64,000 nucleotides of DNA, from NCBI RefSeq assembly GCF_901827175.1, contig NZ_LR594662.1, positions 2,604,001-2,668,000 on the forward strand. The letters are read 5' to 3'. This DNA comes from Variovorax sp. RA8 (lineage in GTDB: Bacteria > Pseudomonadota > Gammaproteobacteria > Burkholderiales > Burkholderiaceae_C). Both the position numbers and the translations under genes were made by a program. This document shows positions 5,965-35,296 of this stretch, piece by piece. Numbering within the stretch: position 1 is the first letter of the stretch; every line of letters starts with the position of its first letter. The notes under the pieces were generated by a model. It did no database searches and was not told the DNA's origin. It saw nothing but the letters and a program-made list of their open reading frames with translations.

Positions 5965-6025
5965 CTCTTTGTCTCCAGGTTGACGGTCTGCGCCGTTCAT
6001 TCGGACTTGCGGTGAGCGCAGCGCT

Positions 6026-7114: not shown

Positions 7115-7195
7115 TTGTGCCTGGTCCTTTGTCTGTTCGAGGCCGATTCTGAGGGTTGCATCCGAGTGCATCGCGGCGGTAGATTCAATCCGCCT

Positions 7196-8170: not shown

Positions 8171-8629
8171 TCAACCTTCCGCAACAAAGCCAGGCAGCAG
8201 CGTGGCCGCGGCCTGCAGAAGCTCGAACTCGGTATCGGAGAGCGGCAGAGGGGTCATGTCGAAATGGCTCAGCGTGCCCCACAGATCGCCGCTGGAGGTC
8301 GTCAGCGGAACACTGTGATACGACACGACCACACCCCGATACGGGTGATCCCGGAGCCTCGGGTCGGCTGCCGAGTCGTCGGTGCGGAACGAGCCGTCCC
8401 GAAGAACGAACTGGCAGAAGCTCTGGTCGAAAGGCACGGCCACAAGGAACTCGGGCCGCAGCTCGCCCGCCTTGTCGTGCAGCAGCACATTGCGCAGCAT
8501 GGGGCCGGCGAAGCGGTAGACGGCGCTGTACCGGTGCGGGACGCCTTCGTTCAGGTACGCAAGCGCCGCCTCCGGGCCTTCGGCGTGCAGGACCGCCGAG
8601 AACGCTTCCAGATTGCGAGGCAATGCCAT
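8171..8629 (-). CDS. GAF-domain-like protein
   Basis: This 152-aa protein is recognisable as a GAF-type sensory domain by GVVVSYHSVPLTTSSGDLWGTLSHFDMTPLPLS near the C terminus, where family members read WGTLCHFD. The expected Cys is Ser here. The ATG at 8629 (MALPRNLEAF) is preferred. Upstream in-frame codons are antisense to the neighbouring LysR gene and look non-coding. It lies 65 bases after that LysR gene on the same strand and converges on the tartrate LysR gene. No output domain is attached; its ligand is unknown. Confidence 0.75.
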   Translation of the reverse strand: MALPRNLEAFSAVLHAEGPEAALAYLNEGVPHRYSAVYRFAGPMLRNVLLHDKAGELRPEFLVAVPFDQSFCQFVLRDGSFRTDDSAADPRLRDHPYRGVVVSYHSVPLTTSSGDLWGTLSHFDMTPLPLSDTEFELLQAAATLLPGFVAEG

Positions 8630-8694
8630 GTCTCGATTTTCGCCCCGAAGGATGAGGGGAACATGATGGATACCCGAACTCGCCGCTGTTGCGC

Positions 8695-9621
8695 TCACCG
8701 CCTGGCCTGCATGGATGCCTCCATCTGCTTGAAGCGATCGACGAGTTCGAGCAGGAAGTCGATGAAGGTGCGGACCTTGGCCGACAAGTGGCGTCCGGGC
8801 AGGTAGACGGCGTGGACGTCCGGCCCCTTCGCCACGTAGTCCGTGAGGATCCGCTTGAGCTGCCCGCGCCGCAACGCATCGGCCGCGATGAAGTTGCTGA
8901 TCATCGTGATGCCGGCGCCCGCGACCGCGGCTTCGAGCAGGGATTCCGCGTTGTTCATGTTCAGCCCCCCGCTCACGACCTTGGCGAAGGTCCGGCCGTC
9001 CTTGCTGAATTGCCAGGCGCGGTAGTTGCCGGTCATCGGAAACATGTAGGCCAGGCAATGGTGCCGGTCGAGGTCGTCGGGAGTCGCAGGCTCGCCGTGA
9101 AGCGCCAGGTAGTCCGGCGAGGCATAGGCCGCGAAGCTCAGGTTGCACAAGTGGCGCGCCACCAGCCGCGCATCGGGGATCGGTCCGATCTGGATCGCCA
9201 GGTCGAAGCCCTCGTATGCCAGGTCCGCCGCCCGATCGCTCAACTCCACGTCCACGCTGAGGCCCGGGTTCTGCTCGGTGAAGCGCAGGAGGGCGGGCGC
9301 GACGACGCGGCGGCCGAAACCCACCGGCATCTGCACGCGCAGCTTGCCTCGCGGAATGCTGTTGCTGAGCGTGAGGGCGCTTTTCGCGTCCTCGATTTCC
9401 GCCAGGATGTGGCGGCAACGATCGAAGAAGCTCGCGCCATCGTTGGTCAGGCTGACCAGCCGCGTCGAGCGGTGGAGCAGCCGCACGCCGAGTTCGCCTT
9501 CCAGCTTGGACACCGACTTGCTCACGGCCGACGGTGTCAGCCCCAGCCGCTCGGCAGCGAGCGTGAAGCTGCGGCTCTCGGCCACGCGGGCGAAGACTTG
9601 AAGTGCGTTGAGGTTTTCCAA
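8695..9621 (-). CDS. LysR-family regulator, divergent from the PrpD/lactonase cluster
   Basis: This 308-aa LysR-type regulator has an N-terminal winged helix (FARVAESRSFTLAAERLGLTPSAVSKSVSKLE) and a substrate-binding domain of the DmlR/CrgA-like group. No ATG is available in frame before the TTG at 9621, so a TTG start is proposed. Only 56 bases separate it from the divergent OYE-type gene at 9678, so it probably controls the 13-kb cluster that begins there. A weak TTGA/TCAA dyad at 9633-9650 could be part of its site. Confidence 0.88.
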   Translation of the reverse strand: MENLNALQVFARVAESRSFTLAAERLGLTPSAVSKSVSKLEGELGVRLLHRSTRLVSLTNDGASFFDRCRHILAEIEDAKSALTLSNSIPRGKLRVQMPVGFGRRVVAPALLRFTEQNPGLSVDVELSDRAADLAYEGFDLAIQIGPIPDARLVARHLCNLSFAAYASPDYLALHGEPATPDDLDRHHCLAYMFPMTGNYRAWQFSKDGRTFAKVVSGGLNMNNAESLLEAAVAGAGITMISNFIAADALRRGQLKRILTDYVAKGPDVHAVYLPGRHLSAKVRTFIDFLLELVDRFKQMEASMQARR

Positions 9622-9666
9622 GGTACCCGCTATTGATGAACCAAATTCAACAGTGTTTGTAATTCT

Positions 9667-9680
9667 AGGGGATTTATGTG
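9667..9680 (+). promoter_or_regulatory. Ribosome site selecting a GTG start for the OYE-type gene
   Basis: AGGGGA at 9667-9672 lies 5 bases before the GTG at 9678. The in-frame ATG at 9708 has no comparable Shine-Dalgarno sequence, so GTG is the better start. An ATG at 9676 is in another frame. Confidence 0.5.
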
Positions 9681-11744
9681 CAAGAGCATCCTAATTACGA
9701 TTGGGCGATGCTCCTGCAAACCGCTGCGTCCATCGGTCCGCTCCGCCTGAAAAACCGCGTGGTGATGGCGCCCATGGGCACCAACTACAGCACCACCGAC
9801 GGCCTCTCCACCGCGCGCGACAAGGCCTACTACGCCGAGCGCGCACGTGGCGGCGTCGCGATGATCATGACGGAGGCGATGGTCGTGACCGAGCAGGCCC
9901 GGCCGCATCACAACTCGCTGTGCTGCTACCACGACCGCTTCATCCCGGGGCTCGCGAGCATCGTCGAGGCGATCAAGGAACACGACTGCCATGTCTTCGG
10001 CCAGCTGAACCACCGCGGCGGGCTGCTGCGGCGTTCGGTGCTCAACATGGAGCCGGTCGGTCCCTCGGCCTGGACCAACCCGAACACCGGCGATGCGGTG
10101 CGCGCGCTGGCAGTGCCGGAAATCCACGAGATCCAGAAGCTCTTCGTCGCCGCTGCGCGCCGGCTCGCGCTCGCGGGCTACGACGGTGTCGAGATCCATG
10201 CCGCCAACGGCTACCTGTTCCAGCAGTTCTTCACGCGGCGCATCAACCAGCGCACCGACCAATATGGCGGCTCGATCGAGAATCGAATGCGCCTCCTGCT
10301 CGAGACCATCGACCGGGTGCGCCAGGCGCTGCCCGAGCTGTGCCTGGTGGTGCGGCTGAGCGCGAGCGAGTTCACCGCGGACGGCTACACGACCGAGGAG
10401 ATCATCGAGCTCGCACGGGCGGTGGAGCGTGCCGGCGTCGCCGCGATCGACCTCTCGGGCGGCAGCAACGAGAGCCCGCAGCTTTCGAAGTACTGCATCC
10501 AGCCGCCGTCCTTCCCCCGCGGGTGCCTCGCGCCCCATGCAAAACCCATCAAGGACGCGGTCGGCATTCCGGTGCTCGTCGCGGGCCGCATCGTCGAGCC
10601 GGCCGATGCCGAGCAGGTGCTGGCTTCGGGCAGTGCCGACTTCGTCTCGCTGGGGCGCGCGCTCTACGCCGACCCCCACTGGTGCCTCAAGGCGTTCGGC
10701 GAGGTGAAGGCGCCCATTCGGCAGTGCATTGCCTGCAACGTGTGCTTCGAGCGCCTCACCCTCGAGAAGGACGTGGCCTGCGTGCAGAACCCGATGCTGG
10801 GCACCGAGTTCGAGACCCTCGAACACGCCGAGCCGCAACTCTTCGATGCGCCGCGGGAAGGGCGCAAGCGCGTGCTCGTGCTCGGCGCCGGCGTCGCGGG
10901 TATCGAGGCTGCCCGCGTGGCGAGCGGCCGCGGGCACCAGGTCGAGGTGTGGGAGAAGAGCGCAAGCACAGGCGGCCAGATGCACCTGGCGGTTGCAGCG
11001 CCCGACAAGATGGAAGTGCAGCCGGTGTGGGACTACCGCTGGAGCGAGCTGATGGCGATGCGCGTGCCGGTGCGCACCGGCGTGGACGCGGACGAGGCGC
11101 GGCTGCGCGCCTTTGCACCCGATTTCGTGGTGGTCGCGACCGGCGCGGCGCCGCGTCCGGCGCCGCTCGACACGCGAGAGCTCGACCCCGCCATCCCGGT
11201 GCTGCACGCCTGGGACCTGCTGCGCGACCCCTCGCGCGTGGCGCGCGGTGCGGCGCTCACGATCGTGGGCGGTGGAATGGTCGGCGTCGAGCTGGCCGAC
11301 CTGCTGCGCGAAAGATCCTGCACGGTGCAGGTGCTGGAACTGCAGGCCGGCGCGGCCAACGGCATGGCCCGCAACAACCGGTTCGAGCTGCTGGAACGGC
11401 TGGCCGCGGCAGGCATTCGCGTGATCACGAACTGCCGCATCGACGGCGTCGCCGGGCGCCACCTCGAGGTGCGCATCGGAAAGGACGAGCCTTCGCTGCT
11501 GCCCGTCGGCGATGCCCTCGTCTTCGCCACCGGGCCGCGGCCGAGCCTCGATGTGCTCGATGCCCTCGACGCGAGCGGCATCCCCTATGCGCGCATCGGC
11601 GACTGCAACGTGCCCGGCGACTTCCTGAGCGGGCTGCGCGATGCGTGGATGGTGGGCCTGGCCATCGAGGCGCAGCCCGCGCGCCGCGCGAGCGCCACGT
11701 CCTTCGACGCCGACGAAGCTCGCCTTGCCGGAGCCACCGCATGA
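9678..11744 (+). CDS. Old-yellow-enzyme-type Fe-S flavoprotein oxidoreductase (2,4-dienoyl-CoA reductase / TMADH family)
   Basis: This 688-aa flavoprotein has an N-terminal FMN TIM barrel (residues 10-340; RLKNRVVMAPMGTNYS, GQLNHRGG, EIHAANGYLFQQFF), then a [4Fe-4S] site CIACNVCF with a fourth Cys 11 residues on. The C-terminal half binds FAD and NAD(P)H (VLVLGAGVAGIEAARVA; LTIVGGGMVGVELADLL). The C-x2-C-x2-C spacing resembles trimethylamine dehydrogenase more than FadH. Such enzymes reduce activated C=C bonds. It heads the cluster, and its stop overlaps the next ATG by 4 bases (ATGA), so an unsaturated intermediate for the following lactonase is plausible. The substrate is unknown. Confidence 0.88.
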   Translation: MQEHPNYDWAMLLQTAASIGPLRLKNRVVMAPMGTNYSTTDGLSTARDKAYYAERARGGVAMIMTEAMVVTEQARPHHNSLCCYHDRFIPGLASIVEAIKEHDCHVFGQLNHRGGLLRRSVLNMEPVGPSAWTNPNTGDAVRALAVPEIHEIQKLFVAAARRLALAGYDGVEIHAANGYLFQQFFTRRINQRTDQYGGSIENRMRLLLETIDRVRQALPELCLVVRLSASEFTADGYTTEEIIELARAVERAGVAAIDLSGGSNESPQLSKYCIQPPSFPRGCLAPHAKPIKDAVGIPVLVAGRIVEPADAEQVLASGSADFVSLGRALYADPHWCLKAFGEVKAPIRQCIACNVCFERLTLEKDVACVQNPMLGTEFETLEHAEPQLFDAPREGRKRVLVLGAGVAGIEAARVASGRGHQVEVWEKSASTGGQMHLAVAAPDKMEVQPVWDYRWSELMAMRVPVRTGVDADEARLRAFAPDFVVVATGAAPRPAPLDTRELDPAIPVLHAWDLLRDPSRVARGAALTIVGGGMVGVELADLLRERSCTVQVLELQAGAANGMARNNRFELLERLAAAGIRVITNCRIDGVAGRHLEVRIGKDEPSLLPVGDALVFATGPRPSLDVLDALDASGIPYARIGDCNVPGDFLSGLRDAWMVGLAIEAQPARRASATSFDADEARLAGATA

Positions 11745-12535
11745 CGCCCGAATACGAGGTCTTCGCCATCCGCTACGCCACGCGGGACGCCCGGCGGAAG
11801 AACAACTTTATCGGCGGCGATCCGCACGATGCGCCGATGCCCATGGATTATTTCGTGTGGCTGGTGCGCGGCGCCGGGCGCAGCTACGTGGTCGACACCG
11901 GCTTCGGCGCCGAGATCGCGGCGCGCCGCGGCCGCACGCTGCTGCGCACCCCTGCCGAAGGCCTGGCCCTGCTCGACGTCGACGCCCGCCTGGTGCAGGA
12001 CGTCGTCATCACCCACCTGCACTACGACCACGTCGGCACCTTCGAGAGCTTTCCGGCCGCGCGCTTCCACCTGCAGGACGACGAGATGGCGTACGCGACC
12101 GGCCGTCACATGCGGCACCGCCAGTTCAACCACGGCTACGAGGTCGACGAAGTGATCGGCATGGTGCGCCTGGTCTACAAGGACCGCGTTGCCTTCTACA
12201 GCGGCAGCGCCGAGCTGGCGCCGGGCATCAGCCTGCACCGCATCGGCGGCCACACGCACGGCCTGCAGTGCGTGCGCGTCCACACGCGCCGCGGCTGGGT
12301 CGTGCTGGCTTCCGATGCGAGCCACTACTACGAGCACTTCGAGAAGCGCCGCGTGTTCACCACCATGTTCAACGTGGGCGAGGCGGTCGATGGCTACGCC
12401 ACGCTGGAGCAGCTTGCCGACTCCCCCCGGCACATCGTCCCCGGCCACGACCCGCTCGTCATGCAGCGCTACCCGGCGCCGTCCGCGGCGCTGGAGGGCA
12501 TTGCGGTGCGGCTCGATGCCGACCCCGCGGACTGA
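11741..12535 (+). CDS. Metallo-beta-lactamase-fold lactonase (AHL-lactonase-like), copy 1
   Basis: This 264-aa MBL-fold hydrolase has the two-metal motif THLHYDHVG (HxHxDH), a later His in RIGGHTHGLQ, Asp in VVLASDASHYYEH and a terminal His in IVPGHDPLV. These are the ligand positions of AiiA-type N-acyl-homoserine lactonases. It overlaps the flavoprotein gene by ATGA and is clearly paralogous to the protein at 16404-17231 along its whole length. Within this cluster, hydrolysis of a catabolic lactone is more likely than quorum quenching, though both are possible. Confidence 0.85.
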   Translation: MTPEYEVFAIRYATRDARRKNNFIGGDPHDAPMPMDYFVWLVRGAGRSYVVDTGFGAEIAARRGRTLLRTPAEGLALLDVDARLVQDVVITHLHYDHVGTFESFPAARFHLQDDEMAYATGRHMRHRQFNHGYEVDEVIGMVRLVYKDRVAFYSGSAELAPGISLHRIGGHTHGLQCVRVHTRRGWVVLASDASHYYEHFEKRRVFTTMFNVGEAVDGYATLEQLADSPRHIVPGHDPLVMQRYPAPSAALEGIAVRLDADPAD

Positions 12536-12610
12536 GATGCCGAGGCGCGCCGATTCATTCACGGCTTGCGGGCGCGAGTCGCCGATCACGACCAAAGAAG
12601 GAGACAAGAC

Positions 12611-13576
12611 ATGAGAGCGATTTCGAAACTGTGGCTGGCCGCTGCGTTCTGCCTCGGGGCGGTGGCGCCTGCCGCGGCGCAGGACTACCCCGCGCGCCCC
12701 GTGCAGGTGATCGTGGCCTTTCCCGCCGGCGGCAGCGCCGACATCGTGGGCCGCCACGTCATGCAGAAGCTCAGCGAGACGACGGGCGGCTCCTTCGTGG
12801 TCGAGAACCGCACCGGCGCCGGCGGCAACATCGCCTTTGCGGCCACGGCGGCCGCCAAGCCGGACGGCTACACGCTGCTGTTCAGCACGCCGGGCATCGC
12901 CATCAACCCCAGCCTCTACAAGAAGGCCAACTACAAGCTGGAGGACTTCACCCCGATCGCGCTCATCGGCGAGGCGCCGCTGGTGCTGCTGGCCAATCCG
13001 GCGCTGCCGATCAAATCGGTCAACGACCTGGTCGAGGCCGGCAAGCGCAAGCCGGACGCCATTCGCTTCGCCAGTTCGGGCAACGGCAGTTCCTCGCACT
13101 TGGCGATGGACGTGCTGCGCTCGATGACGGGCATGCAGTACCTGCACGTTCCCTACCGCGGCGGCGGCCCCGCGATGCTCGACGTGATCGCCGGCCAGGT
13201 CGACGTGACCATGCTGCCGATTTCCGAAAGCATGCCCTACGTGCGCGACGGGCGGCTGCGCGCGCTCGGCCAGACGGGCGCCAAGCGCTCGCCCATCGCG
13301 CCCGACATGCCGACCATCGAGGAGGCTGGCGTGAAAGGCTATGCGTCGACCACGTGGTACATGGTGCTCGGGCCGGCCGGCATGCCGCGCAACGTGGTCC
13401 AGACCCTGCAGGCGCAGCTCGACCGCGTGCTCAAGATGCCGGACCTGCAGGAGAAGCTCAAGGCCGCCGGTGTCAGCGTGATCAACGGCAATTCGGAGGA
13501 GGCCAACGCCTTCCTGCAGTCCGAGTACAAGAAGTGGGCCGCGCTGATCAAGGCCTCCGGCACCATCATCGAGTGA
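12611..13576 (+). CDS. Bug/TctC-family periplasmic solute receptor (cluster copy 1)
   Basis: This 321-aa exported binding protein has a signal peptide (residues 1-23, LWLAAAFCLGAVAPAAAQ), then the family signature DYPARPVQVIVAFPAGGSADIVG and KPDGYTLLFSTPG. An ideal ribosome site (AAGGAGACAAGAC) precedes the ATG at 12611, which rules out the in-frame ATG 15 codons upstream. It starts the first TctC-PrpD unit of the cluster. No membrane partners are encoded in the window. Confidence 0.93.
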   Translation: MRAISKLWLAAAFCLGAVAPAAAQDYPARPVQVIVAFPAGGSADIVGRHVMQKLSETTGGSFVVENRTGAGGNIAFAATAAAKPDGYTLLFSTPGIAINPSLYKKANYKLEDFTPIALIGEAPLVLLANPALPIKSVNDLVEAGKRKPDAIRFASSGNGSSSHLAMDVLRSMTGMQYLHVPYRGGGPAMLDVIAGQVDVTMLPISESMPYVRDGRLRALGQTGAKRSPIAPDMPTIEEAGVKGYASTTWYMVLGPAGMPRNVVQTLQAQLDRVLKMPDLQEKLKAAGVSVINGNSEEANAFLQSEYKKWAALIKASGTIIE

Positions 13577-13600
13577 GGCGAGCGGCATGAGGAACATCCG

Positions 13601-14998
13601 ATGAGCAGCAACACGCCCGCCCTGCTGGAAGGGGCCACCCGCACGCTGGCCGAGTTCGCGTCAGGCGTCGCCTTCGACGACCTGCCGAAACAGGTGGTCG
13701 CGCGCATGAAGACCAGCCTGCTCGACAGCATCGGCTGCTGCCTGTTCGGCGCCACGTTGCCATGGACGCAGCGCGTGCAGGCGATGGTCGAGGAGGAGGG
13801 CGCGCGCCCCGTCGCCTCGATCTTCGGCAGCGGCCGCAGGACGTCGATCGCAGGCGCCGTGCTCGTCAACGCCACGGCGGGCCACGCCTTCGAGCTCGAC
13901 GACATTCACAAGGAATCGATCGTGCACGCAGGCTCCATCGCGGTGCCGGTGGTGCTCGCCTTCGCCGAACAGAAGGGCGGCGTGCCGGGTCGCGCGCTGC
14001 TCGCCGCGATGGCCACCGGCTACGAGATCGGCACACGGGTCGGCAACGCGGCGACGATGGGGCTCTTCTTCCGCGGCTTTCATCCGCAGGGCACCTCGGG
14101 CGTGTTCGTCGCCGCTGCGGCGGCCGCGCACATGCTTGGCCTCGACGCGGCGCAGATGCAGCACGCGCTCGGGATCGTGGGTTCGCAGGCCGGCGGGCTG
14201 ATGGCGGCGCAGGAGGGCGCGATGGTCAAGCGCTTCCATTCCGGCCGCGCGGCGCAGAGCGGCGTGTATTCGGCGCTGCTGGCACAGCGCGGCTTCACCG
14301 GGATCGGCGACGTGCTCGAAGCGGGCTACGGCGGCTACCTGAGCACCTATTCCGACAAGCCCAACGCGCCGCGCCTCACCGACGAGCTCGGCGCGGTGTG
14401 GGAGGCAGGCAAGGTCGGCTACAAGCCGCATGCCTGCGTGACGAGCATCCACTCGTCGCTCGACGCCTTCAGGCAGCTGCTCGACACGCACCAGCTCACC
14501 CCGGGCGACATCGAGCGCGTCGACGTCGGCACCAGCCGCATGACCTACCAGCACTGCGCCTGGACGTACAAGGCCCAGGGCGTGACGGCGGCGCAGATGA
14601 ACCTGTTCTACGGCATCGCGGTCATGGCCTACGACGGCGTCGCCTTCGTCGCGCAGTACGCCGAGGAGCGCCTTGCCGAGCCGCGGCTGCTCGACTTCGT
14701 CGAGCGCGTGCACGCGCATGTCGACGACGAGATCGAGGCCATGGGCCCGGCCTATCGCCATGCGGCCCGCGTCAAGGTCACGACGCGCGACGGCCGCAGC
14801 TTCAGCCACGAGATCCTGAACCGACGCGGCAGCCCCGAGAACCCGATGACGCCGGCGGACGTGGAATACAAGTTCCGCAATGTCGTCGCCTCGTGCCTGT
14901 CGCCGGCCCACATCGAGCGCGTGATCGCGCTGGTCGACCGGCTGGAACACCTCGACAGCACCGGCGAGCTGATCGCGCTGCTGGCCGCGCCACGCTGA
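13601..14998 (+). CDS. MmgE/PrpD-family protein 1
   Basis: This 465-aa member of the MmgE/PrpD superfamily (2-methylcitrate dehydratase, cis-aconitate decarboxylase, iminodisuccinate epimerase) shows family-typical segments: LLDSIGCCLFGA, NATAGHAFELDDIHKESIVHAGS and MVKRFHSGRAAQSGV, followed by KPHACVTSIHSSLDAF. It spans both the helical and lid domains at normal length. It follows a TctC gene after 24 bases and is followed by a second PrpD gene 28 bases later. The presence of four paralogs argues against a housekeeping PrpD; the reaction is unknown. Confidence 0.88.
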   Translation: MSSNTPALLEGATRTLAEFASGVAFDDLPKQVVARMKTSLLDSIGCCLFGATLPWTQRVQAMVEEEGARPVASIFGSGRRTSIAGAVLVNATAGHAFELDDIHKESIVHAGSIAVPVVLAFAEQKGGVPGRALLAAMATGYEIGTRVGNAATMGLFFRGFHPQGTSGVFVAAAAAAHMLGLDAAQMQHALGIVGSQAGGLMAAQEGAMVKRFHSGRAAQSGVYSALLAQRGFTGIGDVLEAGYGGYLSTYSDKPNAPRLTDELGAVWEAGKVGYKPHACVTSIHSSLDAFRQLLDTHQLTPGDIERVDVGTSRMTYQHCAWTYKAQGVTAAQMNLFYGIAVMAYDGVAFVAQYAEERLAEPRLLDFVERVHAHVDDEIEAMGPAYRHAARVKVTTRDGRSFSHEILNRRGSPENPMTPADVEYKFRNVVASCLSPAHIERVIALVDRLEHLDSTGELIALLAAPR

Positions 14999-15026
14999 TT
15001 TTTTTCCCCCCTCCTTCGTCCACCCC

Positions 15027-16400
15027 ATGAACCAGACCTCGACCTCCTCCGCCACGCTCGCCGATCGACTGGGCGCGCACTTCAGCCGCTTCCAGTGGAG
15101 CGATCTCGGCGCCGACACCCGCAAGGCCGTCAAGCGCCTGCTGCTCGACTACATCGGCGTGGCCGTCTCCGGCAGCCAGACCGAGAGCGGCAAGGTCGCA
15201 CGCGAGTTCGCGGCCGTCACCGGCGGCCATGCGGAGGCCACGCTGATCGGCGGCGTCGGCCGCGTGCCGGCGATGCAGGCCGCCTTCGCCAACGCGATCT
15301 CCTCGCACAGTGTCGAGCTCGACGACATCGACGTGCTGGCGCTGTTCCACTTCAGCCCGCCGGTCTACTCCGCCGCGCTGGCCACGGCCGAGCAGAAGGG
15401 GGCGAGCGGCAAGGACCTGCTGACCGCGCTCGCGGCGGGCTGCGAGATGATGGAGCGCCTGAGCAAGGCGGCCAACAACTCGCTGCGCAACCGCGGCTTC
15501 CACACGACGCCGACCTGCGGCGTGTTCGGCGCGACGGTGGCCGCGGCGCTGCTGCAGAAGCTGCCCGCGGACAAGATCGTCTCCGCGCTCGGGCTGGCCG
15601 GTGCGTCCTCGTCGGGGTTGATGGAGATGTACGGGCCCTCGATGCAGAAGCGCTTCAACCCCGGGCCGACAGCGCGCAACGGCGTCACGGCGGCCACGAT
15701 CGCAGGGCTGGGCTTCACCGGCGCCTCGACCATCTTCGAAGGCGAACGCGGCTTTCTCGCCGCGTTTACCGACAAGAACGATCCAGGGCAGCTGGTGGCG
15801 GGCCTGGACCGGCCGTATCAGCTCGACATCGAGTTCAAGCCCTATTCGTGCGCCCGGCCGATCCACAACGCGATCGACTGCGCACTGGACATCCGCCGCA
15901 AGCATTCACCGGACCTGAACCGCGTGCGTTCGATCGAGATGGCGCGCCATCCCGAGTGGGCCCACTACCACCAGAACAAGCGCCCGCGGACGTACCACGA
16001 GGCGCAGGTGAGCCTGCCGTACTCCGTGGCGGTGGCGCTGACCGACGGCCAGGCGCTCTTCGCGCAGTACAACGACGCGCGCCTGCAGGAGCCGATGCTG
16101 CTGCGCCTGTCGGACCTGGTGGAGATCAAGCCCGACGCGACGCTGCCGCGCGGCGTCTCGTGCCGCATGACGATGACCATGGAAGACGGCACGCAGCACG
16201 TGTCGCAGGTCGACTATCCCAAGGGCTCGATCCAGAACGCCATGGACGACGACGAATTGCGCGCCAAGTTCGACAGCCTCGTGCACCCGGTGCTCGGCGC
16301 CGGCCGCGCCACCGAGATCGCGGCGATGGTGCAGGGCATCGAGGACGTTGCGGACATCGGCCAGCTGATGCAGCTGACGTCGAAGCCCGCGGCACGCTGA
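15027..16400 (+). CDS. MmgE/PrpD-family protein 2
   Basis: This 457-aa MmgE/PrpD superfamily protein shows LLLDYIGVAVSGSQTESG, NAISSHSVELDDIDVLALFHFSP, MQKRFNPGPTARNGVTAA and KPYSCARPIHNAIDCALDI. It is clearly related to its upstream neighbour but strongly diverged: HFSP replaces the VHAGS type of the active-site loop, and NPG replaces HSG. That suggests a different substrate or a heteromeric pairing of the two proteins. Only 3 bases separate its stop from the second lactonase gene. Confidence 0.88.
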   Translation: MNQTSTSSATLADRLGAHFSRFQWSDLGADTRKAVKRLLLDYIGVAVSGSQTESGKVAREFAAVTGGHAEATLIGGVGRVPAMQAAFANAISSHSVELDDIDVLALFHFSPPVYSAALATAEQKGASGKDLLTALAAGCEMMERLSKAANNSLRNRGFHTTPTCGVFGATVAAALLQKLPADKIVSALGLAGASSSGLMEMYGPSMQKRFNPGPTARNGVTAATIAGLGFTGASTIFEGERGFLAAFTDKNDPGQLVAGLDRPYQLDIEFKPYSCARPIHNAIDCALDIRRKHSPDLNRVRSIEMARHPEWAHYHQNKRPRTYHEAQVSLPYSVAVALTDGQALFAQYNDARLQEPMLLRLSDLVEIKPDATLPRGVSCRMTMTMEDGTQHVSQVDYPKGSIQNAMDDDELRAKFDSLVHPVLGAGRATEIAAMVQGIEDVADIGQLMQLTSKPAAR

Positions 16401-16403
16401 GCG

Positions 16404-17231
16404 ATGGACCCGGCCTTCGCCCTGCCGAACTACGAGGTGGTCGCGCTCAAGTACGCGACGCGGGGCGGCAGCCGGCCCGACCACTTCGTTGGCGGCGATC
16501 CGCACGAGGTGCCCATGCCGATGGACTACTACCTGTGGGTGGTGCGCGATGAACAGCGCATGTTTCTTGTCGACACCGGCTTCAACGCGGACATGGCGGT
16601 CAAGCGCCACCGCACGCTGTTGCGCACGCCGGCCGAGGCGCTGGCGCTGCTCGGGATCGCGGGCGGGGATGTGCGGCAGATCGTCGTGACCCACCTGCAC
16701 AACGACCACATCGGCACTTTCGACGAATACCCGAACGCGCGCTTCCACCTGCAGGACGACGAGATGGCGTTCGCGACCGGCCGCTACATGTGCTGCGAGC
16801 GATTCAACCGGGCCTACGAGGTCGAGCACGTCGCCGGCATGGTGCGGCTCACCTACCAGGACCGCATCGAGTTCCACCGCGGCGACGCCGAGATCGGACC
16901 CGGCATCAGCGTCCACCGCATCGGCGGCCACACGGCCGGGCTGCAGGCAGTGCGGGTGCACACGGCGCGCGGCTGGGTCGTACTGGCCTCGGATGCGAGC
17001 CACTACTACGAACACTTCGAGACCCGGCGCTGCTTTCCGCTGGTGTTCCACGTGGGCGACGTGCTGGAAGGCTATGCGCGCCTGCTGGCGCTGGCCGAGT
17101 CGCCGCGGCACGTGATCCCCGGGCACGATCCGCTGGTCGTGCAACGCTACCCGGCCTTGTCGCCGGCGCTGGCCGGCATCGCGGTGCGGCTGGATCTCGA
17201 GCCCTTGCCATCCACCGGTACCGAAGCATGA
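16404..17231 (+). CDS. Metallo-beta-lactamase-fold lactonase, copy 2
   Basis: This 275-aa paralog of the lactonase at 11741-12535 aligns with it from YEVVALKYATR to GHDPLVVQRYPA without large gaps. Metal ligands are retained: THLHNDHIG, RIGGHTAGLQ, LASDASHYYEH and PGHDPL. The Tyr of HLHYDH is Asn here. Its stop overlaps the next TctC ATG (ATGA), so it is tightly coupled to a receptor gene. Keeping two such enzymes in one operon suggests two lactone substrates or stereoisomers. Confidence 0.86.
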   Translation: MDPAFALPNYEVVALKYATRGGSRPDHFVGGDPHEVPMPMDYYLWVVRDEQRMFLVDTGFNADMAVKRHRTLLRTPAEALALLGIAGGDVRQIVVTHLHNDHIGTFDEYPNARFHLQDDEMAFATGRYMCCERFNRAYEVEHVAGMVRLTYQDRIEFHRGDAEIGPGISVHRIGGHTAGLQAVRVHTARGWVVLASDASHYYEHFETRRCFPLVFHVGDVLEGYARLLALAESPRHVIPGHDPLVVQRYPALSPALAGIAVRLDLEPLPSTGTEA

Positions 17232-18196
17232 AGACGACACTGAAGATCCTCGCCGCCGTTGCACTCGCCGCGCATGCACTGCTGGCCGCCGCGCAGGACT
17301 ATCCGAACCGCGCCGTGCGCCTGATCGTGCCCTTCCCGCCGGGCGGCGGCACCGACATCATCGCGCGCCCCATCGCGCAGAAGCTGGCCGAGAAGTGGGG
17401 CCAGCCGGTCGTCGTCGACAACCGCGGCGGCGCGGGCGGCAATGTCGGCACCAAGGCCGCGGCCGAGGCGCCGCCCGACGGCTACACGCTGATCCTCGGC
17501 GTGCAGGGAACGCATGCGGTCAACCAGAGCCTCTATGCCAACGCAGGCTTCGATTCCACCCGGGACTTCGCCGCCATCACGATGGTGGCGAACACGCCGA
17601 ACATCCTGGTGGTCCATCCCTCGGTGCCGGCCCACTCCGTGGCCGAGCTCGTCGCGCTCGCCAAGGCGAAGCCGGGCGCGCTCAACTATGCGACGCCCGG
17701 CAACGGCACGCCGTCGCACCTCGCGACCGAGATGTTCAAGCGCATGGCGGGCGTCGAGCTGACGCATGTCCCGTACAAGGGCAGCGGCCCGGCACTGGCC
17801 GACATGCTCGGAGGCCAGACCCAGCTCTGGATCGCCAACGCGCCTGTCGTGCTGCCGCACATCAAGGCCGGCAAGCTGCGCGCGCTGGCGAGCACCAGCG
17901 CCAGCCGGCCGTCGATCGCAGCCGACATTCCGACGCTGGCCGAGGCCGGGCTCAAGGGCTACGAGGCGGACACCTGGTACGGCCTCTTCGCGCCGGCGAA
18001 GACGCCCAAGCCGATCCTGGACAAGATCCATGCCGACGTGGTCGCCGTGCTGCAGTCGCCGGAGATCCGCGAGGCTTTCGCGCCGCAAGGTGCCGAAGTC
18101 GTCGCCAACAGTTCCGAGGCGTTCACGCGCCAGTTGAATGACGACGTAGCCAAGTGGAAGAAGGTGATTGCCGATCTCAAGCTGCGGATCGACTAG
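17228..18196 (+). CDS. Bug/TctC-family periplasmic solute receptor (cluster copy 2)
   Basis: This 322-aa exported receptor has a signal peptide (MKTTLKILAAVALAAHALLA, cleavage near AAAQ) and the Bug signature DYPNRAVRLIVPFPPGGGTD. APPDGYTLILGVQG and GLKGYEADTWYGLFAPAKTP are also typical. The start is fixed by the ATGA overlap with the lactonase gene; an upstream continuation of the frame is antisense or out-of-frame sequence of that gene. The next PrpD gene begins 2 bases after its stop. Confidence 0.93.
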   Translation: MKTTLKILAAVALAAHALLAAAQDYPNRAVRLIVPFPPGGGTDIIARPIAQKLAEKWGQPVVVDNRGGAGGNVGTKAAAEAPPDGYTLILGVQGTHAVNQSLYANAGFDSTRDFAAITMVANTPNILVVHPSVPAHSVAELVALAKAKPGALNYATPGNGTPSHLATEMFKRMAGVELTHVPYKGSGPALADMLGGQTQLWIANAPVVLPHIKAGKLRALASTSASRPSIAADIPTLAEAGLKGYEADTWYGLFAPAKTPKPILDKIHADVVAVLQSPEIREAFAPQGAEVVANSSEAFTRQLNDDVAKWKKVIADLKLRID

Positions 18197-18198
18197 CC

Positions 18199-19530
18199 AT
18201 GCTGGCGCGACGCCTTGGAGAATTTGCTGCCGGCGTGGACGCCGCCGCGTTGCCGAGCACTGTCGTCGATGCCGTCAAGCTGCGCGTTCTCGACACCCTG
18301 GGTGCGGGGCTCGCGGGCATGGCGCTGGGCCATCATCGCGTGCTCGATCCGGTGCTGGAGTCGGCCGGAAGCATCCGGGTCTGGGGCGAGGCGGCCACGC
18401 GCTCGGCGCGCGAGGCGGCACTGGTCAACTGCTTCGCGACGCATTCGACCTACCTCGAGGACGGCTCACGCTTCACCGGCGGCCATCCTTCGTCGGTGGT
18501 CGTGCCGGTGGTGCTCGCAGATGCGCAGCAGCGCAACGCAGCCGGGACGGAGATGATGGCCGCCGTGCTCGCCGGCTACGAAATCTTTCTCCGGCTGGGC
18601 CGCGCGATCTATCCCGCCTGCGTGCAGCGCGGGTTCCAGAGCACCGCGGTGCTTGGCGCCGTGTCGTCTGCCGCTGCCATCGCGCGGCTGCGCCGTCTCT
18701 CGCCGGCCCAATGCGGCGATGCGATCGCGATCGCTGCGAACCTCGGCATCGGGCTGAAGGAAGCATTGAAGAGCTCGGCCACGCAGCCGCTCCAGGTCGC
18801 GCGCACCTGCGAAGGCGGCATGGTGGCCGCCGCATTGGCCGAGGCCGGATGCCAGGGAGCCCCGCTCGTGCTCGAAAACGGCTTCCTGCCCGCCTTCGGC
18901 CCCGGCGCCGATGCGGCGGCCGTCACCGCGGGGCTCGGCAGCGAGCTGCGCATCGGCGAGACCTATCTGAAGCGCCATGCAGGCTGCCGCGGCAACCATG
19001 CGCCGCTCGATGCGGCCCTGGAACTGATCTCGGCCGAAGGGCTGAGCGCCGGCGACGTGCGCCACCTCACGGTCGCAGTCGACAGCGTGACCCGCGCCGC
19101 CGCCATCGAGCCGCCGCTGAACGGCGATCAGGCGCAGTTCAGCATCGGGTTCTCGGTCGCGTTGGCCTTCGTCGACGGCGACGCGCCGATCTTCAGCTAT
19201 ACGGACGCGCGGCTCGCCGATGCCGCGATCCGCGCGATGATGGCGCGCGTCGAGGTGCGCATCGACCCTGCACTCGACGCCCGCTATCCCGCGGAGCGCG
19301 GCGCGTGGGTCGAGGCGGAACTCGCCTCGGGCCGGCGCGTGCGGCGTGCTGTAGCCAATGCGCGGGGCGAGCCCGAATGGCCGCTGTCCCGGCAGGACGT
19401 CGAGCGGAAGTTCCTTGCCCTCGCGGCGCCGCGCCTCGGCGAGCGAGCCCACGCGCTGCGCGAGGCGATCGGGCGCATGGAGCACACGGACGGCGCATCG
19501 ATCGCCGCACTTCTCGCCCCCGCCAACTGA
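18199..19530 (+). CDS. MmgE/PrpD-family protein 3
   Basis: This 443-aa MmgE/PrpD superfamily protein starts MLARRLGEFAAGVDAAALP; the 15 in-frame codons upstream overlap the TctC gene. It contains LRVLDTLGAGLAGMALG, NCFATHSTYLEDGSRFTGGHPSS and KRHAGCRGNHAPLDAAL. Where family members usually have the HxxELDD motif it reads HSTYLEDGS, so this copy is the most divergent in the active-site loop. Tight spacing to the preceding receptor gene (2 bases) implies coupled expression. Confidence 0.86.
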   Translation: MLARRLGEFAAGVDAAALPSTVVDAVKLRVLDTLGAGLAGMALGHHRVLDPVLESAGSIRVWGEAATRSAREAALVNCFATHSTYLEDGSRFTGGHPSSVVVPVVLADAQQRNAAGTEMMAAVLAGYEIFLRLGRAIYPACVQRGFQSTAVLGAVSSAAAIARLRRLSPAQCGDAIAIAANLGIGLKEALKSSATQPLQVARTCEGGMVAAALAEAGCQGAPLVLENGFLPAFGPGADAAAVTAGLGSELRIGETYLKRHAGCRGNHAPLDAALELISAEGLSAGDVRHLTVAVDSVTRAAAIEPPLNGDQAQFSIGFSVALAFVDGDAPIFSYTDARLADAAIRAMMARVEVRIDPALDARYPAERGAWVEAELASGRRVRRAVANARGEPEWPLSRQDVERKFLALAAPRLGERAHALREAIGRMEHTDGASIAALLAPAN

Positions 19531-19555
19531 TTTCAACATGCAGAAGGACCACTTG

Positions 19556-20560
19556 ATGACCACGACTTCGATCCCTCGCCCGGCCGCCAGGCGCCGGCTG
19601 CTCGGCGCGGCCGCGCTCGGCGCCTTGATGCTGGCCACGCCAGGCGGCTTCGCGCTCGCGCAGGACTATCCGAGCCGGCCGATCAACCTGATCGTCGGCT
19701 TTCCGCCCGGCGGATCGAACGACATCGTCGCGCGCATCCTCGCGCCCCGCCTGGGCGATGCGCTCGGCGTGCCGGTGGTGGTCGTCAACAAGCCGGGGAG
19801 CAATGCGCTGATCGGCACCGAGTTCGTCGCCCGCGCCGCGCCCGATGGCTACACCATCACGCTGGCGAGCGCGAGCCCGCTGGTCATCAGCCCGAGCACC
19901 TACGCCAAGATGCCCTTCGACGCCTTGAACGACCTGGTCGGCATCACGACCGTCGCGAACACGCCGGAGCTGGTGGCGGTGCATCCGTCGGTCCAGGCCA
20001 GGACCCTGCAGGAGCTGATCGCGCTGTCGAAAACCCGCGAGGTCACACTCTCGTCGTCGGGCAACGGCGGGCTGCCGCACCTCGCGATCGAGCTGCTGCG
20101 CACGGCCACCAAGGGCAAGATCCTGCACGTGCCCTACAAGGGCGCGGGGCCGGCGGTCACCGACACGGTCGGCGGGCATGTCGATGGCGTCATCATGGAT
20201 TTGCCGGCGCTGCAGACCATGGTGCTCGATGGCCGCCTGCGCCCCATCGCCATCACCAACAAGGCGCGCGCGCCCTCGCTGCCCGATACGCCCACGTCGG
20301 TGGAGCAAGGCGTGCCGAGCCTGCTGGCCTTCAACTGGTTCGCCGTGATGGCGCCGGCCAAGACGCCGAAGCCGATCGTCGACAAGCTGTATGCCGCGCT
20401 GGTCAAGGTCGCGCATTCGCCGGAGGTGAAGGAGGCGATGGTCAAGGTCGGCGTCGAGCCGCTGACGCATCCGTCGCCCGAGGCCTTCGCCGTCTTCATG
20501 CGCGAGGAGACCGCGCGCTGGGGCAAGGTGGCGCGCGACTCCGGCGCCAAGGCCGATTGA
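19556..20560 (+). CDS. Bug/TctC-family periplasmic solute receptor (cluster copy 3)
   Basis: This 334-aa exported receptor has a long basic leader (RPAARRRLLGAAALGALML) before the cleavage region ALAQ, then DYPSRPINLIVGFPPGGSNDIV. The ATG at 19556 is preceded by AGAAGGA at good spacing; an ATG at 19538 six codons earlier lacks one. A fourth PrpD gene follows 25 bases later, forming the third TctC-PrpD pair. Confidence 0.92.
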   Translation: MTTTSIPRPAARRRLLGAAALGALMLATPGGFALAQDYPSRPINLIVGFPPGGSNDIVARILAPRLGDALGVPVVVVNKPGSNALIGTEFVARAAPDGYTITLASASPLVISPSTYAKMPFDALNDLVGITTVANTPELVAVHPSVQARTLQELIALSKTREVTLSSSGNGGLPHLAIELLRTATKGKILHVPYKGAGPAVTDTVGGHVDGVIMDLPALQTMVLDGRLRPIAITNKARAPSLPDTPTSVEQGVPSLLAFNWFAVMAPAKTPKPIVDKLYAALVKVAHSPEVKEAMVKVGVEPLTHPSPEAFAVFMREETARWGKVARDSGAKAD

Positions 20561-20585
20561 CATCGAGAAGAGAGAGAAGACGCCC

Positions 20586-22016
20586 ATGGACGACCTGAAC
20601 GCCTGGAAGTCGCTCGCCCGCGAGCACCGCGGCATCACGCTGGCATTGGCCGAGTTCGTCTCGTCGCTCCGGGCCGAGGCGGTGCCCGATGCGACGCGGC
20701 AGGTGTTGGCCAAGGCCGTGGTCGATGCCATCGGCTGCGGGCTCTACGGCCTCACCACGCCCTGGGGCCGCACCATGAGCGCCTTTGCGGGTGAGCAGGG
20801 CGGGCCGGCCGAGGCCGGGCTCTGGGGCGCGGGACAGCGGGTCAGCGTCGGCCACAGCGTGCTGGCCGGCGGCACCGCGATCCACAGCTTCGATTTCGAC
20901 GACCACAGCCGCGCGAAGATCCATCCGGGTGCGATCGTCGTGCCGGTCGCGCTGGCGCTGGGCGAACGCGAGAGCGCGCCAGGCAGCGTCGTGCTGGCCG
21001 CCATCGCGGCGGGCTACGAGACGATGAACCGCGTCAGCCTGGCGGCCAATCCCGGTCGTGCGCGGATGCGGGGCTGGCATCTCACCGGCACCTGCGGCAC
21101 CTTCGCGGCGGCGGCCACTGCCTGCGTGATCCTCGGCCTCGATGCCGGGACCACGGCAAGCGCGCTCGGCCTCGCGGGCACGCAGTCGGCGGGCCTTTGG
21201 GCATTCACGGCCGACGGCTCGATGAGCAAGCGCATGCACCCGGGACGGGCGGCGCAGGATGGCGTCACGGCGGCGCTGCTGGCGGCGCGAGGCTTCGAAG
21301 GGCCTCGGTACATCCTCGAAGCGGAGGACGGAGGTTTTCTGTTCGCGATGTCCGATGCGCCGAGGCCCGGGCGCATCACCGAGGGGCTCGGGAGCACCTG
21401 GCATTCCGACGCGACTTGCTTCAAGCCGCACGCCTGCTGCGGCAGCAATCATGCCTGCGTCGATGCAGCGATCGACATCATGCGCGAGCACCGGCTGGGC
21501 ATCGACGACGTCGATCGCGTGGTCGCGGGCATCGCGAGCGTGGTGCAGACACAGACCGGCTTCGACTACCAGGCCGATTCCGTGCTCAACGCGCAGATGA
21601 GCCTGCGCTACAACATTGCGGTGGCGATGTGCGACGGCCAGGCCTTGCTCGAGCAGTTCACGCCCGAGCGCATCGTAGAGCCGCGCACGGTCGCGCTGGC
21701 GCAGCGTGTGGAGATCGAGATCGATCCCGAGATCGATCGGGCGTATCCCGAGATCTATGGCGGTCGCGTCACCGTCGTCACGCGCGGCGGGCAAACCATC
21801 AGCCGGCGCGTCGACTATTCGCGCGGCATGCCCGAGAACCCGATGGCGCACGAGGAGATCGAGCGCAAGTTCATGTCGCTGGCCACCGTTGCGGTGGGCG
21901 CCGCGCGCGCGGGCGAGATTCTTCGCCTCGCCAACGGTGTCTTCGCTGCCGGCTCGGTGACGCCACTCAATGCCATGCTGACCGCATCGACGATCGCCGA
22001 AGTGCGGCACGCATGA
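20586..22016 (+). CDS. MmgE/PrpD-family protein 4
   Basis: This 476-aa MmgE/PrpD superfamily protein has VVDAIGCGLYGLTTPWGRTM, AIHSFDFDDHSRAKIHPGAIVVP, MSKRMHPGRAAQDGVTAAL and KPHACCGSNHACVDAAI. The FDFDDHSRAKIHPG loop corresponds to the substrate pocket of the family. It has an AGAAGAGAGAGAAG-type ribosome site. It is the last PrpD of the cluster and is followed after 91 bases by the aldo/keto reductase. Confidence 0.88.
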   Translation: MDDLNAWKSLAREHRGITLALAEFVSSLRAEAVPDATRQVLAKAVVDAIGCGLYGLTTPWGRTMSAFAGEQGGPAEAGLWGAGQRVSVGHSVLAGGTAIHSFDFDDHSRAKIHPGAIVVPVALALGERESAPGSVVLAAIAAGYETMNRVSLAANPGRARMRGWHLTGTCGTFAAAATACVILGLDAGTTASALGLAGTQSAGLWAFTADGSMSKRMHPGRAAQDGVTAALLAARGFEGPRYILEAEDGGFLFAMSDAPRPGRITEGLGSTWHSDATCFKPHACCGSNHACVDAAIDIMREHRLGIDDVDRVVAGIASVVQTQTGFDYQADSVLNAQMSLRYNIAVAMCDGQALLEQFTPERIVEPRTVALAQRVEIEIDPEIDRAYPEIYGGRVTVVTRGGQTISRRVDYSRGMPENPMAHEEIERKFMSLATVAVGAARAGEILRLANGVFAAGSVTPLNAMLTASTIAEVRHA

Positions 22017-22107
22017 GCCTTGCCTGGCGGTTCCGAAGTGACTCCAATGAACACCCGCGCTGGAGCAGCGTGGTTAACATGAAGGGCCGAATTTCGGAGA
22101 ACTGCAC

Positions 22108-22974
22108 ATGACCCGGCCTGACACCCTCGAGATCCCCACCGGCGGCCGGCTTCCCGTGCTCGGCCTGGGCACCTGGCACCTCGGCGAGGACCCCGCCCAG
22201 CGGCGCGCGGAAGTCGCCGCGGTGCGCTCGGCCATGGCGATGGGCTACCGCCTCATCGACACGGCCGAGATGTACGGCGAGGGCGGTGCCGAGGAAGTGG
22301 TGGGCCAGGCCATCGCGGAGGCGCTGCGCGCCGGCGACGTGGCGCGCGAGCAGCTGTTCGTCGTCAGCAAGGTGTATCCGCACAACGCCAGCCGCACGGG
22401 AACGCCGGCCGCCTGCGCGCGCAGTTTGGCGCGGCTCGGGCTGGATCGCATCGACCTCTATCTGCTGCACTGGCGCGGCGAGCATCCGCTCTCCGAAACC
22501 TGCGAGGCAATGCGTCAACTCGTGGCCGAAGGCCGCATCGCGCACTGGGGCGTCAGCAACTTCGACACCGATGACATGGAAGAGCTGGCCACGGTATGTG
22601 GCGAGCCGCTGGACTGCGCGGCGAACCAGGTCTACTACTCGATGAGCGAGCGCGGTCCGGAGTTCAGCCTGCTGCCGTGGCAACGCCAGCGCGGCATGCC
22701 GATGATGGCCTACAGCCCGATCGACCAGGGCGCGTTGGCGAGCGACGCGGCACTCCAGAAGATGGCCCGGCGGCTGGGCGTGACAGCGGCACAGCTCGCA
22801 CTCGCCTGGGTGATCGCGCAGCCCGGCGTGGTTGCCATCCCGAAGGCCGTGCGCGAAGCGCATTTGCGCGAGAACCTGGCTGCCGCTGACCTGGAGCTGA
22901 GCGCGGACGACCTTGCGGAGATCGACCGCTTGCATCCGCCGCCGCGGCGCAAGAAGCCGCTGGCGATGATCTGA
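22108..22974 (+). CDS. Aldo/keto reductase
   Basis: This 288-aa NADPH-dependent reductase has the complete AKR tetrad: Asp and Tyr in YRLIDTAEMYGEGG, Lys in FVVSKVYP and His in YLLHWRGEHP. GVSNFDTDDMEEL and AIPKAVREAHLRENLAA (cofactor site) are also present. It is closest in look to E. coli YeaE/DkgA-type enzymes. It ends the PrpD/lactonase cluster on the same strand and would reduce an aldehyde or ketone intermediate there. A separate promoter in the 91-base gap is possible. It converges on the permease gene. Confidence 0.9.
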   Translation: MTRPDTLEIPTGGRLPVLGLGTWHLGEDPAQRRAEVAAVRSAMAMGYRLIDTAEMYGEGGAEEVVGQAIAEALRAGDVAREQLFVVSKVYPHNASRTGTPAACARSLARLGLDRIDLYLLHWRGEHPLSETCEAMRQLVAEGRIAHWGVSNFDTDDMEELATVCGEPLDCAANQVYYSMSERGPEFSLLPWQRQRGMPMMAYSPIDQGALASDAALQKMARRLGVTAAQLALAWVIAQPGVVAIPKAVREAHLRENLAAADLELSADDLAEIDRLHPPPRRKKPLAMI

Positions 22975-25590: not shown

Positions 25591-25615
25591 ATTGATCTGA
25601 AAATCGAATGAGCCA

Positions 25616-25639
25616 ATCCGAAGTTTCAATTTTACGGAT
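25616..25639. promoter_or_regulatory. Candidate LysR operator ATCCG-N14-CGGAT
   Basis: Perfect 5-bp inverted arms ATCCG (25616-25620) and CGGAT (25635-25639) flank an AT-rich centre, in the 105-base divergent region between the LysR gene and the AtuA-like operon. The size is right for a LysR site; support is positional only. Confidence 0.38.
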
Positions 25640-25682
25640 GACTGTGGAAGGCCTACAGTCGCTGTCACAACACGAGACACGC

Positions 25683-33515: not shown

Positions 33516-33516
33516 G

Positions 33517-35295: not shown

Positions 35296-35296
35296 C

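Follow-up and report, generated by a model that had tools for sequence, protein, structure and literature searches.

A LysR-linked gene cluster with four divergent MmgE/PrpD-family proteins in Variovorax sp. RA8, a candidate catabolic unit for substituted 1,4-dicarboxylic acids

Introduction

Among described systems, the gene cluster reported here comes closest to the itaconate/methylsuccinate cluster of Pseudomonas and Cupriavidus, in which, according to the available parts of the published accounts (PMC12290011, PMC9875883), an MmgE/PrpD-family enzyme acts on a free branched 1,4-dicarboxylate and a lactonase acts on 2-hydroxyparaconate. That system uses a CoA transferase, an acyl-CoA dehydrogenase, a hydratase and a citramalyl-CoA lyase, and as described in the same parts it has a single PrpD protein, with Tyr148, and no old yellow enzyme (OYE)-type flavoprotein. 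The cluster studied here lies at about 9.7 to 23.0 kb of a 64,000-nucleotide stretch of Variovorax sp. RA8 (NZ_LR594662.1, positions 2,604,001 to 2,668,000; hereafter the window). It likewise combines the MmgE/PrpD family with lactonase-like hydrolases, but encodes four MmgE/PrpD proteins and an OYE-type flavoprotein.

In the accessible part of PMC12290011, MmgE/PrpD homologues were found in 19.2% of the species searched and were mostly uncharacterised, while the four characterised activities had a common 1,4-dicarboxylate core. Six pocket residues of iminodisuccinate (IDS) epimerase (H85, D88, H99, H150, K198 and K266) are assigned there to 1,4-dicarboxylate binding or catalysis, and methylsuccinate isomerase has a Glu, Glu91, at the place of IDS epimerase D88. 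The second known system with which the cluster was compared was the 2-methylcitrate cycle with its PrpD and PrpB enzymes.

No description of the cluster was found in the open-licence library searched, in agreement with an earlier reading of the sequence alone (the sequence-only reading), which had put it forward as a candidate undescribed pathway. We propose, at about an even chance, that the cluster works as one catabolic unit, switched by LysR and independent of CoA, which degrades substituted 1,4-dicarboxylic acids arriving as lactones or in unsaturated form. Four conserved sub-families with fixed but different pockets lie in one apparently co-regulated unit, and the substrate of the operon could therefore assign several of them at once.

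Composition and conservation of the cluster

Coordinates are those of the whole 64-kb window, and OYE, MBL1/2 (metallo-beta-lactamase fold), Bug1-3, PrpD1-4, LysR, TTC and AKR are working names. The eleven consecutive plus-strand genes stood in the order given by the sequence-only reading, and their domains agreed with it. Oxidored_FMN (PF00724, 239.5 bits) and Pyr_redox_2 (PF07992, 87.3 bits) were found in OYE (9708..11744), a 4Fe-4S flavoprotein resembling ene-reductases, and Lactamase_B (PF00753, 60.2 bits), acyl-homoserine lactone (AHL)-lactonase-like, in the hydrolase MBL1 (11741..12535). TctC (PF03401) was found in the receptors Bug1 (12611..13576; 237.7 bits; N-terminus signal-peptide-like by eye) and Bug3 (19538..20560; 206.5 bits). 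Both family domains, MmgE_PrpD_N and MmgE_PrpD_C, exceeded the gathering score in PrpD1 (13601..14998; PF03972, 222.8 bits; PF19305, 116.5 bits), PrpD2 (15027..16400), PrpD3 (18199..19530) and PrpD4 (20586..22016), and Aldo_ket_red (PF00248, 202.1 bits) was found in the aldo/keto reductase AKR (22108..22974). The Pfam run covered these nine of the eleven genes. MBL2 (16404..17231, plus strand like the others), included in the NCBIfam scan, is a paralogue of MBL1 (65% identity) with a clade of its own (34 sequences, support 0.988), and Bug2 (17228..18196) was 41-42% identical to Bug1 and Bug3 and had a TctC match of 253.5 bits (G000:C1:2621360-2622181). From OYE to AKR the intergenic gaps were -4 (overlap), 75, 24, 28, 3, -4 (overlap), 2, 7, 25 and 91 bases. 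The start of OYE, read earlier as GTG at 9678, is more probably the ATG at 9708, which was kept in six aligned sequences; a query begun at 9708 matched from residue 1 in 26 of 26 cases (25 loci and the window). The coordinates of MBL1 were likewise corrected to 11741-12535. The host genome (7.42 Mb) has seven PrpD-family genes, and since four of these lie within the cluster, their grouping is more than chance.

Related loci were sought with an alignment of MBL1 relatives in one genome per species (84,980 species), which gave at least 595 stretches, at least 579 of them encoding a relative. Neighbourhoods were counted in the best 80 of these at least 579 relatives, so that the counts describe near relatives only; a gene was taken as present at 40% identity and 60% coverage, and many of the 80 loci end at contig ends. 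OYE was present in 52 loci, PrpD1 in 59, PrpD2 in 49, MBL2 in 33, PrpD4 in 16, PrpD3 in 12 and AKR in none. For the 41 loci that extend at least 8 kb in both directions the numbers were 28, 33, 32, 24, 13, 11 and 0, respectively. PrpD2 directly followed PrpD1 in all 48 loci with both genes, and OYE directly preceded MBL1 in 41 of 52. The named carriers of OYE, MBL1, PrpD1 and PrpD2 include Variovorax, Ramlibacter, Polaromonas, Bordetella, Achromobacter, Verticiella and Burkholderia; the core OYE-MBL-PrpD1-PrpD2 is conserved across Betaproteobacteria. The cluster is patchy within the genus Variovorax, where 6 of 100 genomes carried PrpD3, that of the window included. The co-occurrence of PrpD types with lactonases in relatives, which the sequence-only reading had proposed as a check, was thus observed, and this conserved neighbourhood, whose absence would have spoken against that reading, supports its view of a real, conserved and probably catabolic unit.

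The association was also seen from the side of PrpD1, for which 300 genomes of the order were searched at a threshold of 1e-130, with neighbours identified at 45% identity. A match at this threshold was obtained in 20 genomes, the host included. The loci anchored in this way (20 of 22 places, outside the host genome) contained MBL1 in 10 of 20 cases, PrpD2 in 10, OYE in 8 and MBL2 in 5. The association of PrpD1 with the cluster is strong and not exclusive: seven of the 20 loci had neither OYE, MBL nor PrpD2, so PrpD1-like proteins also serve elsewhere. In four of these seven (L139, L143, L145 and L146), three PrpD1-like genes stood in tandem, with about 65, 39 and 34% identity to PrpD1, a further arrangement with several PrpD genes.

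The ratio of the proportions of non-synonymous and synonymous differences (pN/pS) lay between 0.07 and 0.33 in the eleven genes for which it was determined (LysR and OYE through PrpD4) against the loci L023, L024, L025 and L027, values that indicate purifying selection on all of them.

The regulator and its predicted operator

The sequence-only reading had the eleven genes right and overlooked the regulator of the unit and its operator. The LysR gene (8695..9621, minus strand) is divergent from OYE. Its TTG start at 9621 was set by alignment, L024 and L039 having ATG at the aligned place, and its product was 81-95% identical to those of L023, L024, L025 and L027 and 67% identical to that of L039. 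A divergent LysR gene stood beside OYE in 25 loci as well as the window; under the criteria of the neighbourhood counts, 24 of the 47 loci that could be tested had it.

Between the two genes lies a predicted LysR-type operator, TGAACCAAATTCA (9637..9649, no strand assigned), of the form TGAA-N5-TTCA. The exact form was present in 16 of the 26 LysR-OYE intergenic regions (25 loci and the window), and the best match in the remaining ten had 7 of 8 arm bases. Dinucleotide shuffles, in which the relatedness of the loci was ignored, gave the exact form 0.18 times on average and at most twice, compared with the 16 observed. In the window it occurred once, with 0.19 matches expected. Sites of LysR-type regulators follow a T-N11-A rule, and the spacer, which varied across the regions between arms that held, behaved as expected of such a site. 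With both a divergent LysR gene and a T-N11-A operator present in the sequence, the cluster is probably a single-switch, LysR-controlled unit that starts at the divergent LysR gene. Its operator and its patchy occurrence, seen for PrpD3 in Variovorax, open the cluster to direct tests.

The gene order leaves room for a different organisation. MBL1-Bug1-PrpD1-PrpD2 followed by MBL2-Bug2-PrpD3-Bug3-PrpD4 repeats a motif, and sub-sets of the cluster occur alone or in other orders elsewhere, so that several small pathways might lie side by side, each combining a Bug, a PrpD and an MBL for a separate acid, with one regulator for all. This seems unlikely to us, as PrpD1 and PrpD2 were adjacent wherever both were present and the window holds a single copy of the operator. 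A single conserved catabolic unit with its own regulator is the strongest part of the reading that we prefer, and the classes of reaction follow from the protein families.

Divergence and active sites of the four PrpD types

The sequence-only reading had described the cluster as amplified. The four PrpD proteins were only 27-40% identical to one another, and each type (sequences at least 45% identical to that of the window) formed one clade across genera, with supports of 0.76, 1.0, 1.0 and 1.0 for PrpD1 to PrpD4. Four such clades together with the low identities argue against a recent amplification of one PrpD, an idea that was rejected. Nor did the proteins score as PrpD of the methylcitrate cycle, an outcome that would have counted against that reading: they reached 18.8-59 bits, where listed, with the 2-methylcitrate dehydratase models TIGR02330, NF006943 and NF042438, the cut-offs of which are 458-950 bits.

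The best match by sequence in the PDB for PrpD1, PrpD2 and PrpD3 was IDS epimerase (2hp0/2hp3), and cis-aconitate decarboxylase (6r6u) was also among the ten matches. Pocket residues were read at IDS epimerase positions 85, 88, 99, 145, 150, 198 and 266 in sequence sets that include the window. They were H, E, H, F, H, K, K in PrpD1 (59 sequences), H, E, H, R, H, K, K in PrpD2 (50 sequences), H, D, H, R, H, K, K in PrpD4 (14 sequences) and H, Y, H, V, Q, Q, K in PrpD3 (12 sequences, from the window and 11 loci). The six residues were therefore kept in PrpD1, PrpD2 and PrpD4, with Glu in place of Asp88 in PrpD1 and PrpD2. The second catalytic base of the epimerase-type enzymes (Tyr145 of IDS epimerase, Tyr148 of methylsuccinate isomerase) was present in none of the four types; the position held F (58 sequences) or L (one) in PrpD1, R in PrpD2, V in PrpD3 and R in PrpD4, where the alignment was ambiguous (A in a second alignment) and never gave Tyr.

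PrpD3 differed from IDS epimerase and from the other three types by the replacements D88Y, H150Q and K198Q, found in 12 of 12 sequences and overlooked in the sequence-only reading. They were also the rule in the best 120 of 345 PrpD3 homologues (that of the window included), with Y88 in 119, Q150 in 119 and Q198 in 116, while H85 was kept in 120, H99 in 119 and K266 in 119. PrpD3 thereby departs from PMC12290011, according to which every member of the family conserves the residues that coordinate the carboxylates. These replacements suggest that a neutral group sits in PrpD3 where other members hold a carboxylate, and this sub-family is the part of the cluster likeliest to surprise a specialist.

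The pN/pS of PrpD3 was 0.25-0.33 against L023, L024, L025 and L027 and 0.42 against L039, compared with 0.07-0.30 and 0.22-0.48, respectively, for the other genes measured. It was the highest of all genes in three of the four nearest comparisons, and second to MBL2 against L024, so a relaxed constraint on PrpD3 is possible. This, and the loss of three of the six pocket residues, would fit a non-catalytic or decaying paralogue. The same replacements recur nearly without exception in the homologues, however, both K266 and the catalytic base, H99, persist in nearly all of them, and the ratios against the four nearest loci still indicate purifying selection; decay of PrpD3 is therefore rather doubtful, and a changed activity is the explanation pursued below.

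The flavoprotein and the lactonase-like hydrolases

A cysteine pattern CxxCNxCx11C, expected to hold the 4Fe-4S cluster, was read by eye in the OYE protein, and the FadH-form pattern CxxCNxxC had no match in it. The protein matched mycofactocin OYE2, BaiCD and bilirubin reductase (long form) at full length, over the FMN and the NAD(P)H/FAD parts, but with 430, 399 and 368 bits it remained below their cut-offs of 793, 825 and 750 bits; no cut-off was reached among 25 of 61 NCBIfam families listed.

The metal ligands of MBL1 (H92, H94, D96, H97, H171, D192 and H236) were invariant in 16 aligned sequences, that of the window included. They make up the AHL-lactonase ligand set HxHxDH~H~D~H, of which the HxHxDH part was looked for in MBL2 and is present there too. 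The best NCBIfam models for the MBL proteins were AHL lactonases, with 55-60 bits, and public records carry that name, which would suggest quorum quenching. The scores were about one sixth or less of the cut-offs of the curated models (at best 60.2 bits against 360-475; 55.4 bits for MBL1 with the AidB lactonase model, cut-off 360), and the partner genes encode metabolic enzymes, so that a role in quorum quenching is highly improbable.

A funnel for lactones from aromatic ring cleavage, of the muconolactone type, is another candidate, with OYE reducing a dienelactone, MBL opening it and the PrpD proteins rearranging oxo- or hydroxy-dicarboxylates. Distant MBL1 paralogues on the plasmids NZ_CP115853.1, NZ_LR594668.1 and NZ_LR594669.1 are accompanied by carboxymuconolactone-decarboxylase-family, short-chain dehydrogenase/reductase and NAD(P)-dependent oxidoreductase genes, and in two of the three by PrpD, which makes up a second MBL-PrpD assembly. 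However, a Pfam scan of recurrent gene families from the 80 loci, which covered 20 of the 45 unlabelled ones, revealed neither a ring-cleaving dioxygenase nor a carboxymuconolactone decarboxylase, and we consider such a funnel improbable. Tetrapyrrole-derived maleimides and fungal alkylcitrate lactones were also considered as substrates and are not claimed.

Linked partner genes and proposed pathway

The gene TTC (6026..7171, minus strand) encodes a tartrate dehydrogenase/decarboxylase-like protein of the Iso_dh family, which exceeded the threshold of the tartrate dehydrogenase model TIGR02089 (558.1 bits; cut-off 470.4) and may be a partner of the pathway. It is separated from OYE by 2.5 kb, neighbours a LysR gene other than that of the cluster, and was 85% identical to the cluster-linked gene of L063, compared with 46-49% for the two other copies of the host. 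Further families in the 80 loci were a PrpB-like lyase (20 loci), a ModA-like protein (18), a tartrate-dehydrogenase-like enzyme (16) and an amidase (14). The TTC orthologue and the lyase had gone unnoticed in the sequence-only reading. The lyase was linked in Polaromonas (L028) and Ramlibacter (L053), among others; 21 of 22 lyase sequences had the motif K(K/R)CGH. It recalls the 2-methylcitrate cycle, as it is nearest to methylisocitrate lyase, but its 295.8 bits were below the PrpB cut-off of 354.4. The ModA-like (SBP_bac_11) protein (e.g., L042:6208-6912) often adjoins LysR and may be an enzyme and not part of a transporter.

Gene content, conservation, the LysR gene with the operator sequence and the active-site residues were observed directly; from the protein families and the pocket residues we infer the following pathway, in all its reactions, their order and the substrate. 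The Bug receptors would bind the acids in the periplasm and pass them to TctA/B permeases encoded elsewhere in the genome. Opening of a lactone, or of an ester or anhydride related to it, would fall to the MBL enzymes, and OYE would reduce an activated C=C bond with NAD(P)H. PrpD1, PrpD2 and PrpD4 would catalyse dehydratase/hydratase or isomerase steps on the resulting 1,4-dicarboxylates, taking the proton from C2 or adding it there via an enolate. The intermediate handled by PrpD3 would carry a neutral group (amide, ester, lactone or ketone) in place of one carboxylate. The pathway would yield an acid of the 2-hydroxysuccinate type, which could leave towards 2-oxoacids by the tartrate/D-malate-type decarboxylating dehydrogenase, adjacent here, or by the PrpB-type lyase encoded elsewhere in the genome. 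The families of TTC and the linked lyase are both known for 2-hydroxy-1,4-dicarboxylates, which supports this pathway. It is also supported by the conserved neighbourhood, the co-occurrence seen from PrpD1, the operator, the purifying selection, the seven TctA permeases of the genome (none in the window), and the retention in PrpD1, PrpD2 and PrpD4 of the six residues to which the available part of PMC12290011 assigns 1,4-dicarboxylate binding and catalysis. The substrate class of the sequence-only reading, unsaturated or lactonised polycarboxylic acids, appears plausible.

The cluster might further represent a new CoA-free pathway, in which four functionally different MmgE/PrpD enzymes would replace hydratases, isomerases and CoA enzymes. 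PrpD3 would then have a new activity, its carboxylate pocket (D88, H150, K198) having been rebuilt with neutral residues (Y, Q, Q) for a half-masked dicarboxylate (amide, ester or lactone), and PrpD1 and PrpD2 may act as a pair. This extension is tentative, and its probability falls short of even; the idea of a pair is limited by the occurrence of PrpD1 without PrpD2.

Several observations weigh against the proposed unit and its pathway. PrpD1 had no adjacent PrpD2 in 11 of 59 loci, some of them cut by contig ends, and PrpD1 was missing from 8 of the 41 well-flanked MBL1 loci, to which come the seven PrpD1-anchored loci without OYE, MBL or PrpD2. The divergent LysR gene was found in just 24 of 47 testable loci, the shuffles disregarded the relatedness of the loci, and a second operator copy before TTC or the lyase gene was found neither in the window nor in the lyase locus L158. 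No TTC orthologue was seen in L023, L024, L025 and L039 (Variovorax-like/Ramlibacter, each with about 7.9 kb of sequence upstream of OYE), L027 being too short upstream to be judged. The host's orthologue of the lyase (74% identity) lies elsewhere (G000:C1:1101283), unlinked to the cluster in the window. The high pN/pS of PrpD3 also belongs here. Since the OYE and MBL proteins scored far below the curated models, "ene-reductase" and "lactonase" are labels at the family level. Three Bug genes carry little weight on their own in a genome with at least 150 TctC matches (150 of 208 candidates scored). The excess of these receptors over the TctA permeases, at least 150 to 7 in one genome, is an observation in its own right.

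Neighbouring genes

The sequence-only reading had counted AKR, at the end of the gene run, as a member of the cluster. It was absent from all 80 related loci, a small test because 11 loci alone reach at least 1.5 kb past PrpD4. Its orthologues in the genomes of L023 and L024 lie on other contigs than the cluster, and none was found at 1e-60 in the genome of L025. AKR was set aside as a conserved enzyme of the pathway; although adjacent, it is probably not a cluster member.

On the other side, TTC is adjoined by a further Bug (TctC) receptor gene (4969..6000, minus strand; PF03401, 255.9 bits; 43% identity to Bug2) and by the second LysR gene (7224..8156, plus strand; 35% identity to the cluster LysR), which is divergent from TTC; the membership of both is uncertain. 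A small GAF-domain protein (8171..8656, minus strand; PF01590, 27.3 bits) is encoded between the two LysR genes.

At 25608-27490 the window contains an AtuA-family gene (PF07287, 482.2 bits) followed by a frame ending at 27490 with GDKGDRSNI..., perhaps a second AtuA part, and adjoined by a LysR and a Bug gene. The AtuA-type gene at 25608 was rejected as part of the cluster, no AtuA being found in either set of related loci, the 80 around MBL1 or the 20 anchored on PrpD1. On a Diaphorobacter plasmid, AtuA, DUF4387 and two PrpD genes were found together. The genes at 32283-36250 (minus strand), for M20 peptidases, an OHCU decarboxylase and a polysaccharide-deacetylase-type protein, are likely to serve purine (urate/allantoin) breakdown, and a xanthine/uracil permease at 23017-24501 was grouped with them.

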